This document shows, piece after piece, positions 4,602 to 39,720 of a stretch of DNA of 64,000 nt. The notes under the pieces are model-generated. The model worked only from the letters and a program-made list of their open reading frames with translations. It was not told the DNA's origin and ran no database searches. The number at the start of each line of letters is the position of its first letter. The stretch's first letter is position 1. Both the position numbers and the translations under genes were made by a program. The stretch lies in the NCBI RefSeq assembly GCF_000974765.1, contig NZ_BBWU01000010.1, positions 1 through 64,000 of the forward strand, given 5' to 3'. Origin of the DNA: Sphingomonas changbaiensis NBRC 104936. GTDB taxonomy: Bacteria > Pseudomonadota > Alphaproteobacteria > Sphingomonadales > Sphingomonadaceae.

Positions 4602-6482
4602 TCAGCCACGCGCGTCCATCGCAGCCAGCACCGGCGAAGCGCCGCGCTCGGCATCGTCGCTCGAACCTTGAAATAAGCTGAACAACTCGCGGCCGAGGCC
4701 CAGCGCAAAGCCCGGTGCGGGCACTACGGGGCGGTCGAGCGCGCCGGGCGTCAGCACCGCGATCGTGCCCGCGACCGCGTCGACACGGACGATGTCGCCG
4801 TCCGCCACGCGCGCGACCGGGCCGCCGTGCAGCGCCTCGGGGTAAAGATGGATCGCGGCCGGCACCTTGCCGCTCGCACCGGACATGCGGCCGTCGGTGA
4901 CCAGCGCGACACGGTGCCCGCGGTCTTGCAGCACGCCTAGTGCCGGCGTCAGCTTGTGCAGCTCCGGCATGCCATTCGCGGCGGGGCCCTGGAATCGGAC
5001 GACCACGACCACGTCGCGGTCGAGCTCGCCGGCCTTGAAGGCGCGCAGCACATCGTCTTGGTCCGAGAAGACTCGCGCAGGCGCTTCGATCACCCAGCGA
5101 TCTGGATCGACCGCGCTGGTCTTGATGATCGCGCGGCCGAGATTGCCGGCGAGCAACTTCTGGCCTCCGGTCGGCTGAAACGGATCGGCGACCGGGCGCA
5201 GCATCGTCGGATCGCGCGTCGCTTCGGGGGCAGGGACCCACTCGATGTGCTCCGGCGCAGGCCGGAGCGTTGCGGCGCTTCCATCACCGCTCCGGTCTTC
5301 GCCGGAGCACTCCGAGAGAGTTGGCTCCTTGGTATACTCTCCCATGCCCCCGGCAGTGACGGTCAGGATGTCGCCATGCAGCAGCCCGGCGTCGAGCAAT
5401 TCGCGGATAACGAACGGCATGCCGCCCGCCTCGCGGAAGTCGTTCACGTCGCCGGAGCCGTTCGGGTAGACGCGCGCGAGCAGCGGGACGGCGTTCGAGA
5501 TGTCCTCGAAATCCTGCCAGTCGATGACGATGCCGGCGGCGCGCGCGATCGCGGGCAGGTGGATCGCGTGATTGGTCGAGCCGCCGGTCGCCATCAGCCC
5601 GATACAGGCGTTCACGATCGCTTTTTCGTCGATCACGCGGCCGATCGGGCGGTAATCGTTGCCGTCCCAGCCGATCTCGGTCAAGCGGTGGACGGCGGCG
5701 CGGGTCAGCTCCTGGCGCAGCTTCGTGCCGGGGTTCGCGAAGGCAGCGTTCGGCACGTGCAGGCCCATCATTTCCATCATCATCTGATTGGAATTGGCGG
5801 TGCCATAGAAAGTGCAGGTGCCGGGCGCGTGATAGCTGGCGGACTCGGCCTCAAGCAGCTCGTCGCGGCCCACCTTGCCCTCGGCATAAAGCTGGCGGAT
5901 GCGCGACTTCTCCTTGTTCGGAATGCCGGACGGCATCGGGCCGCCGGGGACGAGGATCGTCGGCAGGTGGCCGAAGCGCAGGCTCCCGATCAGCAGGCCG
6001 GGCACGATTTTGTCGCAAATGCCGAGCAGCAGCGCGCCTTCGAACATCGCGTGGGAGAGGGCGACAGCGGTCGAAAGCGCAATCGTGTCGCGGCTGAACA
6101 GCGACAGCTCCATCCCCGCCTGACCTTGCGTCACGCCATCGCACATCGCGGGGACGCCGCCCGCGACCTGCGCAGTCGCGCCGCGCTCACGAGCGAAGAT
6201 CTTGATCTGCTCAGGGTATCGTCCGTACGGCTGATGCGCCGACAGCATGTCGTTATAGGCGGTGACGACGCCGATGTTCATCGCCGTACCGGCGCGGATG
6301 ACCGGCTTGTCCTCCTCGGACGCCGCGAACCCATGCGCCAGATTGCCGCAGGACAGGACGCCGCGATTGGTGCCCGCCGCGCGCTGGCGCTCGACCAGGT
6401 CGAGATAGGCGGCACGGGTGGGGCGGGAGCGCTCGATAATGCGATCGGTCACGCGGTCGATGGCGGAGTGGAGGTGGGTCAT
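4602..6482 (-). CDS. edd: Phosphogluconate dehydratase (6-phosphogluconate dehydratase)
   Basis: Dehydrates 6-phosphogluconate to KDPG in the Entner-Doudoroff pathway; an iron-sulphur enzyme of the IlvD/Edd family. Hallmarks are NLAHGF, a [14 protein letters not shown] signature near residue 113, and [20 protein letters not shown] in the C-terminal half. At 626 residues it is about 20 longer than E. coli Edd (603). The excess maps to residues about 391-412, which are encoded by a palindromic repeat (5247-5310) inserted without breaking the frame. zwf lies upstream on the same strand, 171 bases away, separated by a large palindrome; pgl and eda are not here. Confidence 0.95.
5247..5310. repeat. 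Palindromic element family D, in frame inside edd
   Basis: A 64-base palindrome whose outer arms are GTGCTCCGGCG and CGCCGGAGCAC. Further copies are at 27185-27241 and 31899-31954. Here it encodes roughly residues 391-412 of Edd, between EPTLS and IEWVPAPE, a position where E. coli Edd has no equivalent residues. Confidence 0.85.
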
Positions 6483-15028: not shown

Positions 15029-15096
15029 CCGTTCGTGTCGAGCGAAGTCGAGACACGTCCGGTACAGCGTTTCTCGACTTCGCTCGAAACGAACGG
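15029..15096. repeat. Palindromic element family A (aroQ-thiSG)
   Basis: Two units, each containing the core TCGAGCGAAGTCGA or its complement, face each other with CCGTTCG at the left end and CGAACGG at the right. Other copies are at 28509-28566 and 39649-39720. It fills the divergent promoter region and ends five bases before the thiSG start codon. Confidence 0.85.
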
Positions 15097-25249: not shown

Positions 25250-26857
25250 ATGTCCGAATCCCCCGCTTACCGCGTCCTCGCGCGCAAATACCGGCCGCAG
25301 CGTTTCTCCGAGTTGATCGGTCAGGACGCGATGGTCACCACGCTCGGCAACGCGATCAAGCGCGGCCGGCTCGCCCATGCGTTCCTGATGACCGGCGTGC
25401 GCGGGGTGGGGAAGACCTCGACTGCCCGGCTGATTGCCAAGGCGCTGAACTGCGTGGGTCCGGACGGGCAGGGCGGGCCGACGATCGATCCGTGCGGCGT
25501 CTGCGAACCCTGCGTCGCGATCGCCGAAGGCCGGCATATCGACGTGGTCGAGATGGACGCCGCCAGCCATACCGGCGTCGACGATGTGCGCGAGATCATC
25601 GAGGCGGTGCGCTATTCGGCGGTCTCGGCGCGCTACAAGGTCTATATCATCGACGAAGTGCACATGCTGTCGAAGAACGCGTTCAACGCGCTTCTGAAGA
25701 CGCTCGAAGAACCGCCTGCGCACGTCAAATTCCTGTTCGCGACGACCGAGGTCAACAAGGTGCCGGTCACGGTGCTGTCGCGCTGCCAGCGCTTCGACCT
25801 GCGCCGCATCCCGGCCGATAAACTCGCCGCGCATTTCGCGCATGTGGTCGAGGCGGAAGGCGCGGCGGCCGAGCCCGAAGCGCTGGCGCTGATCGCGCGC
25901 GCGGCGGAAGGCTCGGCGCGCGATGGCCTCTCGATCCTCGACCAGGCGATCGCGCACGCGGACATGGAAGGCGGCGAGGTCTCGGCCGCGCAGGTCCGCG
26001 AGATGCTGGGCCTGTCCGACCGCGGCGCGATCCGGCGGCTGTTCGGTCATCTGCTGTCGGGGGAAGGCGAGGCGGCGCTGAAGGCGCTGCGCGACCAGTA
26101 CGATCTCGGCGTGGACCCGGTCGGCGTACTGCGCGGCTTGCTGGAAGCCGTGCACGGCGTGACGATGGCAAAGATGGGCGGCGGCACCGATCCGTCGCAG
26201 TCCGCCGAAGAGCGCGAGCTGGTGGGCGGCTGGGCAGCGCGACTATCCTTCGCGCAGCTTCACCGACTCTGGCAGCTGCTGTTGAAGGGCCATGACGAGG
26301 CCGTGCGCGCGACGATGCCGATGGAAGCCGCCGAAATGGCGCTGCTCCGGCTCATCCACGCGGCCGAGCTGCCGGATCCGGCCGAATTGCTGAAGCGGAT
26401 CGGCAACGGCGAAGCGGTCGCACCGGCGGCGCCTCGCGCACCGGCTCCGCCACTGCCGCCCGCTCCCGAGCCCGCGGCGCAATATCCGGAGAGCTTCCCC
26501 GCGCTGGTCGACATGCTCGGCAAGGGCGGCAAGCCTCTGCTCGCGCAGCAACTGCACGATTTCGTCGGTCTCCAGCGCTATGCCCCGCCTGAGCTGGCCG
26601 TGAAGCCGCTGAAGCCCTTGCCTGGCGATTTCATGCGGGACCTGACGGCGGCGCTCCGCACCCTGACCGGCACCGTCTGGACCGTCAGCACCGATGACGG
26701 CGACGCTCAGCCCTCGCTGCTCGAGCAGGGGCGGGTAATCGAAGAAGCGGCCAGGCAAGCGATTCTCGACACGCCTTTGGTCAAAGCCGCGTTCGAAGCG
26801 TTTCCGGATGCGGAACTGATCGACTACAGCGCGGCCGAACAACGGAGTGCCCCATGA
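25250..26857 (+). CDS. dnaX: DNA polymerase III subunits gamma/tau
   Basis: Clamp-loader ATPase that assembles the replicative polymerase. Walker A GVRGVGKTSTAR is at about residues 44-55, a four-cysteine zinc site lies around residues 72-88 (NCVG..CGVCEPC), Walker B is YIIDEVHML and sensor 1 is LFATTEVNKVP. The C-terminal half carries a Pro/Ala-rich linker and a tau-like domain, total 535 residues. No slippery run for a programmed frameshift is seen in the linker. The stop overlaps the ybaB start (ATGA). Confidence 0.97.
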   Translation: MSESPAYRVLARKYRPQRFSELIGQDAMVTTLGNAIKRGRLAHAFLMTGVRGVGKTSTARLIAKALNCVGPDGQGGPTIDPCGVCEPCVAIAEGRHIDVVEMDAASHTGVDDVREIIEAVRYSAVSARYKVYIIDEVHMLSKNAFNALLKTLEEPPAHVKFLFATTEVNKVPVTVLSRCQRFDLRRIPADKLAAHFAHVVEAEGAAAEPEALALIARAAEGSARDGLSILDQAIAHADMEGGEVSAAQVREMLGLSDRGAIRRLFGHLLSGEGEAALKALRDQYDLGVDPVGVLRGLLEAVHGVTMAKMGGGTDPSQSAEERELVGGWAARLSFAQLHRLWQLLLKGHDEAVRATMPMEAAEMALLRLIHAAELPDPAELLKRIGNGEAVAPAAPRAPAPPLPPAPEPAAQYPESFPALVDMLGKGGKPLLAQQLHDFVGLQRYAPPELAVKPLKPLPGDFMRDLTAALRTLTGTVWTVSTDDGDAQPSLLEQGRVIEEAARQAILDTPLVKAAFEAFPDAELIDYSAAEQRSAP

Positions 26858-27177
26858 AGAACCTCGACGACATCCTCAACATGGCGAAAAACGTCCAGGA
26901 CGAACTGACCAAGGCGCAGGCCAATCTCGATAAGATCGAGGTTGAAGGCGCATCGGGCGGCGGCCTGGTCAAGGTCCGCGCGACCGCCAAGGGCCGGATC
27001 ATCGCGGTGGATATCGACGACTCGCTGCTCCAGCCGAGCGAAAAGCAGATGCTGGAAGACCTTGTCGCCGCCGCCTTCAACGACGCCCGCGCCAAGGCCG
27101 ACGCTGCGTCGTCGCAGGAGATGGGCAAGATGACCAGCGGCCTGCCGCTGCCCCCGGGCTTCAAACTGCCGTTTTGA
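26854..27177 (+). CDS. ybaB: Nucleoid-associated protein YbaB/EbfC
   Basis: A 107-residue DNA-binding protein that forms tweezer-like dimers on the nucleoid. Typical features are MKNLDDILNMAKNVQDEL at the start, KVRATAKGRIIAVDID in the middle, and a Met/Pro-rich end (GLPLPPGFKLPF). It overlaps the dnaX stop by four bases and is translationally coupled. The partner recR, often third in this operon, is absent; a palindromic repeat follows and then convergent moaC. Confidence 0.95.
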   Translation: MKNLDDILNMAKNVQDELTKAQANLDKIEVEGASGGGLVKVRATAKGRIIAVDIDDSLLQPSEKQMLEDLVAAAFNDARAKADAASSQEMGKMTSGLPLPPGFKLPF

Positions 27178-27184
27178 TTCTCGT

Positions 27185-27241
27185 GTGCTTCGGCGAAGGC
27201 CGGAGCGGTGCGACACAGAGCTCCGGCCTTCGCCGGAGCAC
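27185..27241. repeat. Palindromic element family D between ybaB and moaC
   Basis: GTGCTTCGGCGAAGGCCGGAGC, a short spacer and GCTCCGGCCTTCGCCGGAGCAC, related to the copies inside edd and trpE. Here it lies between two convergent genes and could act as a bidirectional hairpin. Confidence 0.85.
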
Positions 27242-27249
27242 ACCGGCGC

Positions 27250-27720
27250 TTACGTTGCCCGCCAATCCCCCGATTTGCCCCCGGTCTTGCTGACCAGCCG
27301 CACGTTTTCGATCACCATCGCTTTGTCGATCGCCTTGCCCATGTCGTAGAGCGTGAGCAGCGCGACCGAAACGGCGGTGAGCGCTTCCATCTCGACGCCG
27401 GTCTTGCCCTCGGTCGCGACGGTTGCCGTGGCGCTGATCGCGCCATCCTCGAACGCGAAATCGACCGCCACGCGCGTGATGGGCAGCGGATGGCAGAGCG
27501 GGATCAGGTCGCTGGTGCGCTTGGCGGCCATGATCCCGGCCACTCGCGCGACGCCAAGCGCATCGCCCTTGGCAAGCGCGCCGTCGCGGATCGCCTCCCG
27601 CGCCTCGGCGCTCATTCGGATGCGCCCTGTCGCGACCGCCTCTCGTGCGGTGACGGCCTTGCCCGAGACGTCGACCATGTGCGCCGCACCGTTCTCGTCC
27701 AGATGGGTGAGCTTAGGCAT
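27250..27720 (-). CDS. moaC: Cyclic pyranopterin monophosphate synthase
   Basis: Converts the MoaA product to cyclic pyranopterin monophosphate in molybdenum cofactor synthesis. The 156 residues include MVDVSGK, GNAKRT-like [17 protein letters not shown] and [22 protein letters not shown] with the catalytic lysine region. The start overlaps the end of trpC by eight bases, so moaC is carried at the tail of the trpG-trpD-trpC operon, an arrangement known from other alphaproteobacteria. Confidence 0.96.
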
Positions 27721-28508: not shown

Positions 28509-28566
28509 CCGTTCGCTTCGAGCGAAGTCGAGAAGCGCGTGTCTCGACTTCGCTCGACACGAACGG
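28509..28566. repeat. Palindromic element family A (trpD-trpC)
   Basis: Two facing units with the core TCGAGCGAAGTCGA and its complement, ends CCGTTCG and CGAACGG. It lies inside the trp operon between trpD and trpC, ending 12 bases before the trpD stop codon on the minus strand. Confidence 0.85.
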
Positions 28567-31052: not shown

Positions 31053-32555
31053 CTACTGCCCAAACCCCGGTTCGCTCGCCCGCCGCACCGCCTCGCGCGC
31101 GGCAGCGAAGAGGGCGCCGGCCTTGGCCTCGCATTCGCGCTGTTCGTAGGCCGGGTCGCTATCGGCGACAATGCCGGCGCCGGCCTGGACGTGCATCGTG
31201 CCGTCCTTCACGACTGCGGTCCTGAGAACGATGCAGCTGTCCATCGATCCGTCGGGCGAGAAATAGCCGACGCCGCCGGCATAGGCGCCGCGTGTTTCCG
31301 GCTCCAGCTCCGCGATGATCTCGCAGGCGCGGACCTTGGGCGCGCCCGAAACGGTTCCGGCCGGGAAGCCGGCGAACAGCGCGTCCAGCGCGTCGCGGCC
31401 GTCGGGCAGGCGGCCGACCACGTTCGACACGATGTGCATCACATGGCTGTAGAACTCGACCGTGTAGCTGTCCGTCACGCGCACGCTGCCCGCTTCGGCG
31501 ACCCGGCCGACATCGTTGCGGCCCAAATCGAGCAGCATTAGATGCTCGGCGCGCTCCTTCGGGTCGGCCAGGAGGGAGTCGCGGTTCTCCGCATCCTCGG
31601 CGGCCGTCTTGCCGCGGGGGCGGGTGCCGGCGATCGGCCGGATCGTGACCTCGCCGTCGCGCGCGCGGACCAGGATCTCGGGGCTGGAGCCGATCAGCGC
31701 AAAGCCCGGCAGGTCGAGGAAATAGAGGAACGGCGACGGGTTTATCCGCCTGAGCGCGCGATACAGGTCGAACGGCGGCAGCGGGAAGGGCGCGGTGAAG
31801 CGCTGGGCCAGCACGACCTGAAAGATGTCGCCGGCGAGGATATAGTCCTGCGCGCGGGCGACCATCTGCCGGTATTTGCCAGGCTCCAGCACCGGCGTGT
31901 GCTCCGGCGAAGGCCGGAGCAGTCCGAGCTGGGCTCCGGCCTTCGCCGGAGCACGAGAGAGAGGGCTTGCGAGCCGCGCCGCAGCCGCGTCGATCCGCTC
32001 CCACGCATCCGCAACCCGCCGCTCCGGATCGTCAGCCCCGGGCCACAGTGGCGCGACCAGGAACAATTCGTCCGCCAGCCGGTCGAACACCAGGATCAGG
32101 GTCGGCCGCACGAACAGCATGTCCGGCAGGTCGAGCGGATTGGCGGGCGGGCGCGGGAGCCGCTCGATCAGGCCGATCGTCTCATAGCCGAAATAGCCGA
32201 CCAGGCATGCGAGCGCGCGCGGCAGCTCGGGCGGCACCTCGGCGCGGCAGCGCTCGACGAGGCCGCGGAGCGCGGCGACGGCGCCGCCTTCGACCGGTTC
32301 GCCGTTGATCTCTGCTGCATCGCCCTGGGCCCGGAAGATCAGGTCGGGCGCCAGTCCGATCAGGCTGTGACGCCCGCGGGTCTGGCCGCCTTCCACCGAT
32401 TCCAGCAGGAAGTCGCCGCGGCCGGGCTCGACCAGCGCCAGCCCGGCGGAAACCGGCGTATCGGTATCGGCGATCTGGCGCCGCCAGACGAACGCCGCGC
32501 GGCCGGCGGCAAGCGTCGCGACGGCTTCGGCATCGTCGCTGCGGTCGCGGATCAC
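31053..32555 (-). CDS. trpE: Anthranilate synthase component I
   Basis: Makes anthranilate from chorismate with ammonia from TrpG. The C-terminal chorismate-binding domain shows DIFQVVLAQRF, GSSPEILVR, PIAGTRPRGKT, LLDLGRNDVGRVA and GTVSGAPKVRACEII. The N-terminal domain should hold the tryptophan feedback site. Residues about 201-219 (near SRAPAKAGAQLGLL) are encoded by a family D palindromic repeat and sit in the linker between the domains. Its start overlaps the ppiD stop by four bases, leaving no room for an attenuator leader. Confidence 0.96.
   Translation of the reverse strand: MIRDRSDDAEAVATLAAGRAAFVWRRQIADTDTPVSAGLALVEPGRGDFLLESVEGGQTRGRHSLIGLAPDLIFRAQGDAAEINGEPVEGGAVAALRGLVERCRAEVPPELPRALACLVGYFGYETIGLIERLPRPPANPLDLPDMLFVRPTLILVFDRLADELFLVAPLWPGADDPERRVADAWERIDAAAARLASPLSRAPAKAGAQLGLLRPSPEHTPVLEPGKYRQMVARAQDYILAGDIFQVVLAQRFTAPFPLPPFDLYRALRRINPSPFLYFLDLPGFALIGSSPEILVRARDGEVTIRPIAGTRPRGKTAAEDAENRDSLLADPKERAEHLMLLDLGRNDVGRVAEAGSVRVTDSYTVEFYSHVMHIVSNVVGRLPDGRDALDALFAGFPAGTVSGAPKVRACEIIAELEPETRGAYAGGVGYFSPDGSMDSCIVLRTAVVKDGTMHVQAGAGIVADSDPAYEQRECEAKAGALFAAAREAVRRASEPGFGQ
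31899..31954. repeat. Palindromic element family D, in frame inside trpE
   Basis: A 56-base palindrome with ends GTGCTCCGGCGAAGGCC and GGCCTTCGCCGGAGCAC. It encodes about residues 201-219 of TrpE, just before the chorismate-binding domain, and leaves the frame open. Confidence 0.85.
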
Positions 32556-39633: not shown

Positions 39634-39648
39634 TTGCGTTGAAACGCT

Positions 39649-39720
39649 TCTCGACTTCGCTCGAAGCGAACGGCTCTAGGGTTCACCCACGTCCGTTCGT
39701 ATCGAGCGAAGTCGAGATAC
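39649..39720. repeat. Palindromic element family A (dnaK-dnaJ)
   Basis: The two units with the core TCGACTTCGCTCGA and its complement are in the opposite order to the copies at 15029 and 28509: the inner ends, not the outer ends, carry GAACGG and CCGTTCG. It fills the space between dnaK and dnaJ and may lower dnaJ expression or stabilise dnaK mRNA. Confidence 0.85.

Follow-up and report, generated by a model that had tools for sequence, protein, structure and literature searches.

How does a palindromic repeat come to lie inside the reading frame of an enzyme gene, and what decides where it can stay? The trpE gene of Sphingomonas changbaiensis NBRC 104936 raises this question. It encodes anthranilate synthase component I (500 amino acids; Pfam PF04715 and PF00425) on the minus strand at positions 31053–32555 of the window, our term for the whole stretch of 64,000 nucleotides of contig NZ_BBWU01000010.1 that was analysed. 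The answer that we favor, and consider probable, is that a REP-like, non-autonomous mobile palindromic dimer entered trpE and that tolerant linkers and loops, of which the TrpE linker is one, become refilled by such elements.

The palindromic dimer in trpE and its family

The element is a 56-bp, head-to-head palindromic dimer at 31899–31954 that consists of two 22-bp arms and a 12-bp spacer (GTGCTCCGGCGAAGGCCGGAGC, 12 nucleotides, and the reverse complement of GTGCTCCGGCGAAGGCCGGAGC). Arm 1 (31899–31920, plus strand) forms its own 8-bp hairpin with a GAAG loop; the spacer occupies 31921–31932, and arm 2 (31933–31954, minus strand) is the reverse complement of arm 1. The dimer leaves the frame of trpE unbroken and reads as RAPAKAGAQLGLLRPSPEH, predicted residues 201–219 of TrpE, which fall between the Pfam domains Anth_synt_I_N (30–166) and Chorismate_bind (227–478). 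An earlier note, made from the sequence, had placed a repeat here, at about residues 201–219 in the linker that precedes the chorismate-binding domain; its coordinates proved exact and the Pfam flanks confirm the position. The arm core TCCGGCGAAGGCCGGAG has six matches in the window at three or fewer mismatches, against 1.00 expected, a number that none of 100 shuffles reached. Predicted folding of the strand at 31890–31970 gives a z of −8.2, and none of 200 shuffles folded equally well.

The AlphaFold model of TrpE (mean pLDDT 82.7) places the insert between helices 177–196 and 227–240, with a short, poorly predicted helix within it. The pLDDT falls to 49 at residues 201–210, the lowest of any ten-residue block, and is 59 at residues 211–220. 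That a repeat had been inserted at a linker, as the same note proposed, agrees with this location of the least confident block and with the TrpEs of relatives, which differ at exactly this place. The alignment with 7bvd_A, the best solved TrpE relative, skips six residues of the insert and sets RPAPDH opposite the insert’s RPSPEH; 5cwa_A, the other of the two best solved TrpE chains, has RPEPRH at this point. We take this likeness as probable chance, because sphingomonad TrpEs that are free of the element lack such a motif.

The trpE element belongs to a family of such dimers, variable in their spacers, that we designate D. A search at two or fewer mismatches per searched arm revealed nine D dimers in the S. 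changbaiensis genome (G000; 3.2 Mb, 53 contigs), including a variant whose arms are CTCCTGC/GCAGGAG. Five of the nine lie in frame in enzyme genes with Pfam support, namely those for TrpE, 6-phosphogluconate dehydratase (Edd), the large subunit of glutamate synthase (GltB), a HutG-like N-formylglutamate amidohydrolase, and a biotin-dependent acyl-CoA carboxylase (PccA). Another three (27185–27241, L003, and L009) lie between genes or upstream of one, and the last (L012) lies near the start of a gene that is presumably GspE-like; the gene names at L003, L009, and L012 are our own readings of the translations.

Three D dimers fall in the window. The Edd copy (5247–5310) is in frame in an ORF of 626 amino acids (4602–6482, minus strand), between ILVD_EDD_N (69–382) and ILV_EDD_C (427–579). 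A second copy, at 27185–27241, lies between ORFs at 26854–27177 (plus strand) and 27250–27720 (minus strand), which we take to be ybaB and moaC, respectively; the third is that of trpE. The earlier count of two in-frame copies within 27 kb (TrpE and Edd) is thus correct, and the additional copy in the window is intergenic. D sits at a domain boundary in TrpE, Edd, and GltB of G000 and in PutA of Sphingomonas horti. The earlier note described the translated text AKAGAQLGLL as recurring in sphingomonad proteins; indeed, APAKAGA recurs in TrpE, GltB, and PccA of G000.

Our genus sample comprised six genomes, G000–G005, where G002 matches S. horti MAH-20 in its trpE DNA (L029, the same as L039). 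At two or fewer mismatches, these genomes contain 16, 0, 61, 0, 34, and 16 D arms, respectively. The corresponding numbers for a second family, E (CGNTTCGAGCGAAGTCGAGAANCG, three or fewer mismatches), are 143, 0, 43, 0, 159, and 59, and the 143 E arms of G000 suggest a content of about 70 E dimers. E dimers occur in the window at 15034–15091 and 28514–28561 (CGTTCG[CT]TTCGAGCGAAGTCGAGAA...), neither of which is flagged in frame by the GC3 rule described below, and an E arm is found at 39645–39668. Across the taxonomic family, D occurs at one or fewer mismatches in 9 of 119 genomes. S. horti, G032, G033, and G058, the last three of which represent three other genera, each hold at least 35 D arms. 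Some pairs of D arms in G032 and G033 start 55–56 bp apart instead of about 34, which suggests a subfamily with a longer spacer.

Known palindromes and a candidate mobiliser

CGTC REPs are known from alphaproteobacteria, sphingomonads among them, through the work of Di Nocera et al. 2013 (PMC3733652), which reports intragenic copies, some of them in frame. That paper states that no dedicated transposase is known for them and reports different REPs at about one site in recB of X. campestris and X. oryzae. D resembles the CGTC-1 REP as described there in its 8-bp stem, its 4-nucleotide loop, and its head-to-head dimers. Its arms, however, start with NGTG instead of CGTC, its stem starts with G-C and C-G instead of A-T pairs, and its tail is mostly NNTG instead of CCA.

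These features are reflected in the base counts of the 128 arms in the D set, which contains 64 dimers and 15 single arms listed and thus consists mostly of head-to-head dimers. The terminal CGTC (or TGTC, CCTC) tag is absent; arms start with G in 123, T in 116, and G in 122 of 128, counts that are partly circular in that arms were found with a GTG pattern at four or fewer mismatches. The base before the arm, which lies outside the search pattern, is C in 40 and T in 56 of 128. At each of the eight stem positions 44–47 of 49 distinct arms pair, and the loop is GAAG in 91 of 128 (the same circularity applies); the third base of the tail is T in 97 of 128. D is therefore CGTC-1-like and not a member of that class, from which it departs in tag, first pair, and tail. 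By inspection, the element in TrpE of S. cavernae (TGTCATCCCCGCGAAAGCGGGGATCCA; L040/L211) has the CGTC-1 features: a TGTC tag, an 8-bp stem with A-T first, a 4-nucleotide loop, and a CCA tail.

Rickettsia RPE-4, RPE-6, and RPE-7, in the available part of a study of R. japonica (PMC3767692), are intragenic in-frame palindromes at solvent-exposed sites; D is also in frame, and the TrpE linker has low pLDDT. The same part reports different RPE groups at or near one site in orthologs (its Table 1) and favors one origin over hotspots, which it calls “still not negligible.” RPE groups share ATGAC and may form one lineage, whereas some of the families that share a loop here show no resemblance and occur in several genera; ATGAC is absent from the TrpE D dimer. 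GTAG REPs and REPINs associated with RAYT, as described in the accessible text of PMC3116915 and PMC8266576, likewise comprise two inverted short palindromes around a spacer and are non-autonomous, but D has no GTAG tag and the search of G000 for Y1_Tnp (PF01797) gave 0 matches. The main text of a 2025 REP survey (PMC12306157), in its available part, contains no word beginning “sphingo.” Earlier publications already report intragenic REPs and, in Rickettsia, the occupation of one site by different RPE groups. New, as far as the open literature that we searched shows, are the D family, the list of enzymes that harbor it, and the refilling of loops by unrelated palindromes across genera.

Within the genus sample, Y1_Tnp is also missing from G001, G002, and G004; it has two matches in G005 and one weak match in G003. 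The domain is present in 5 of 9 D-bearing genomes versus 16 of 110 other genomes of the family (n = 119; one-sided Fisher 0.0085), an excess due largely to genomes in which one or two D arms occur. Two of five D-dense genomes contain it (Fisher 0.21), and the D-rich genomes G000, S. horti, and G058 do not. A RAYT-like protein is a possible candidate for the mobiliser of D.

Loops occupied by different palindromes

The trpE element is an insertion relative to the sister species. G001 and G003 contain no D arm at two or fewer mismatches, and the TrpE linker of G001 is free of the element (no TrpE was found in G003, an 80% complete genome). At the Edd, GltB, and PccA sites, both species have short uninterrupted loops where G000 and S. 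horti have D or a D variant, and the loop is also empty in their nearest matches to the HutG-like gene (59–62% identity). S. horti carries the D family at all five in-gene sites of G000. The native linker is mostly missing from TrpE of G000; the insertion was therefore not clean. Target-site duplications were sought and none was definable, because the loops are too diverged. The comparison of TrpE across relatives that the earlier note had proposed found the same DNA family in S. horti and either no palindrome or another one in the remaining congeners; the same residues written with unrelated codons were not seen in close relatives.

Other palindromes occupy the same positions in G004 and G005. 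Each of the four comparable sites (TrpE, Edd, GltB, and PccA) contains some palindrome in both genomes, with the frame kept. The TrpE site is filled by the E family in both. The Edd site holds a CCCCGGCGAAAGCCGGGG dimer in G004 and a half-decayed D in G005, the GltB site a CCCCTGCGAAAGCAGGGG dimer in G004 and a hybrid dimer in G005, and the PccA site E in G004 and CCCCTCCCCTGAAGGGGAGGGG in G005. E and the PccA palindrome of G005 bear no resemblance to D. At Edd and GltB, the differing arms share the reading phase of D and the differences are partly paired changes. At the HutG site of G005 (L203), a run of N stands exactly at the expected position of the element; the HutG-like match in G004 (48%) has no element.

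The TrpE survey covered 172 loci (162 distinct), each scanned over the whole gene for ungapped inverted repeats; distant paralogs (L033–L038) were excluded before counting. An inverted-repeat score of at least 20 was reached by 5 of the 162 distinct genes, in all cases within the linker segment of about 76 of 500 residues. These genes are L028 and L039 (D), L030 and L031 (E), and L211 (the same as L040) of S. cavernae, whose element, F, is of the CGTC-1 type and has 11 of 20 arm positions in common with D. D was the starting point of the search, and therefore E and F provide the fair test; the two fall in a segment that makes up 15% of TrpE. Two weaker matches (scores 14 and 13) sit outside the linker, and a decayed half element is present in the linker of L106 and L244 (RPELVEG and RSDLVEG). 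In TrpE of Sphingobium wenxiniae (L049), a near-direct duplication with DPDRAIAEALDR twice, unrelated to the palindromes, lies just before the linker.

We examined 49 PccA loops, partly chosen for length or split matches; the 7 of 49 that score at least 13 are thus not a rate, and the remaining loops score 10 or less. Across four genera, five distinct palindromes occupy the PccA loop, and no fewer than four are mutually unrelated. Those outside the genus are in L389 (CGTCACCCCAGCGAAAGCTGGGGTC, with 14 of 20 arm positions in common with the variant of D), L386 (CTCCCGCTTGCGGGAG), and L398 (decayed, E-like). A hand count of the strong PccA matches listed found a large insert splitting about 7 of 102; five of these are outside the genus, three with a palindrome (one decayed) and two without. 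The long inserts of L388 and L387 (G084 and G087) contain no intact palindrome and are possibly decayed elements. At the GltB site, none of 60 strong matches outside the genus has a large insert (hand count), and 29 usable GltB loops that were read contain no palindrome; the remaining genomes had only a distant GltB type. In the loop and spacer comparisons, L433, mis-extracted with a stop in its frame, was dropped before counting. Some loops are general hotspots, whereas others, such as that of GltB, seem to have been filled only in this clade.

In the mechanism that we propose, D is probably selfish and mobile. Its dimers would insert widely, copied by a trans-acting or lost enzyme, and insertions would be common in comparison with the small number of positions able to accommodate about 20 additional residues. 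Purifying selection would remove other in-gene insertions, so that the same loops are filled repeatedly. Some old copies would be inherited and diverge in place, as we infer for PccA of G000 and S. horti and, probably, for Edd and GltB. The encoded peptide, as predicted by translation, would most likely be passive filler.

The strongest competing explanation, which we hold to be plausible and yet not the likelier one, posits one ancient insertion per site followed by in-place diversification or by gene conversion toward the family prevalent in each genome. Consistent with this explanation, GTTCCCCGGCGAAAGCCGGGGCCCAG in Edd of G004 keeps the phase in which D is read in G000 and S. horti, the GltB phase is likewise shared and accompanied by the hybrid dimer of G005, and GltB is free of large inserts in the 60 matches outside the genus. 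Of eight supported sites, six have the element in the LRPSPEH phase (P 0.02 for a chance of one third), a bias first noticed in G000 and thus not an independent test. The CGTC-type arms in TrpE of S. cavernae and PccA of G095 (the latter with 14 of 20 positions) are nearer to D than the other families and could be diverged relatives. A single origin is contradicted where unlike sequences fill one site, as do D and E in TrpE and CCCCTCCCCTGAAGGGGAGGGG and CTCCCGCTTGCGGGAG in PccA.

Comparison of G000 with S. horti bears on the age of the copies. Arms are identical at 43 of 44 positions in TrpE, GltB, and PccA, 42 in Edd, and 39 in HutG, for a total of 210 of 220 over the five sites versus 87% for trpE outside the linker. 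That arms are more conserved than the gene is not predicted by simple neutral decay. The PccA spacer is identical at 31 of 33 positions; this copy was therefore inherited, which also suits a single ancient insertion. The TrpE spacer is identical at 5 of 12. A single edit separates the S. horti TrpE spacer from that of another copy in the same genome, a closeness that 0 of 60 shuffles reached and that favors copying inside S. horti. For the TrpE spacer of G000 no comparably close match was found, and 19 of 60 shuffles did equally well; spacers share end motifs, which makes the shuffles a lenient control. These sequence comparisons suggest that D arrived separately at TrpE in each species or replaced an older copy, and fast spacer drift may also account for the difference. 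In a TrpE DNA tree built without the linker, G000 groups with S. horti (95), then G005 (79), then G004 (76), an order in which E would be older than D at the TrpE site. We give this ordering no weight, because G004 and G005 trade places in the protein tree without the linker and the support values are modest.

It is tempting to speculate that the loops act as docking sites, in which the resident palindrome is the target for in-place replacement by another, even unrelated, family through hairpin-directed exchange. We regard this idea as rather doubtful. If it were true, the linkers of proteins would amount to mobile hairpins that replace one another as a population, with the frame kept.

Reading frame, hairpin, and meaning

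The D arm contains no stop codon in any of the six frames, and the same is true of the arms of E, G, and H. Among D dimers, 39 of 64 are free of stops in every frame, versus 33% of dinucleotide shuffles. These are the observations that favor adaptation of the element for translation, through selection for open frames or for a useful peptide. Frames were called by the GC3 rule, with no gene finder. The rule flags 17 of 64 D dimers in frame, of which 13 were kept on domain or orthology support (5 of 9 in G000, 7 of 33 in S. horti, 0 of 15 in G004, and 1 of 7 in G005). Flagged dimers that were not counted are L163 (3155; no Pfam match), L164 and L183 (short ORFs), and L179 (a MutL_C match with an unclear upstream frame); the single arms L152, L191, and L200 and the GspE-like L012, which was not flagged, were also left uncounted. 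The small number of in-frame dimers argues against adaptation for translation, as do the sampled E dimers (24 of 29 not flagged in frame) and the filling of the same loop by unrelated peptides, and we judge this explanation improbable. The earlier note had offered two readings of the in-frame copies. The first, that the element itself keeps a frame open, is weakly supported: the arm is free of stops, but most of the dimers found lie outside genes. The second, that only harmless insertions survive, fits the results. In S. horti, in-frame D dimers are found in PutA (L153), between the proline dehydrogenase and aldehyde dehydrogenase domains, and, not at a boundary, inside the adenylation domain of LigA (L159) and inside the RNB domain of an RNB-domain protein (L178).

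The hairpin might instead act in trpE at the RNA or DNA level, for example in mRNA processing, pausing, or trp gene regulation. The predicted hairpin is strong and its arms are better conserved than the gene; nevertheless, the same element occurs in unrelated genes and between genes, and 155 of 162 distinct TrpE genes have neither a linker inverted repeat (score of at least 13) nor a recognised half element, which makes such a role very improbable. That the linker is an ordinary native one whose inverted repeat arose by chance, an idea to which the hypervariable linker and the vaguely similar RPxPxH of distant solved TrpEs lend a semblance of credit, is ruled out by the nine one-family dimers in G000, the zero arms in G001 and G003, and the enrichment in the window.

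Repeated filling of tolerant loops by mobile palindromes, the reading that we prefer, bears on the question posed by the R. japonica study in its available part (PMC3767692), namely whether such sites are hotspots or hold a single insert that has diverged. Both patterns coexist in sphingomonads, with unlike families at TrpE and PccA and paired arm changes at Edd and GltB, and the question is therefore testable in them. A warning also follows: where a peptide such as PAKAGA recurs in sphingomonad proteins, it can be a translated repeat. The elements offer a natural map of where well-known enzymes tolerate insertions, and a small set of tolerant protein loops seems to serve repeatedly as landing sites.
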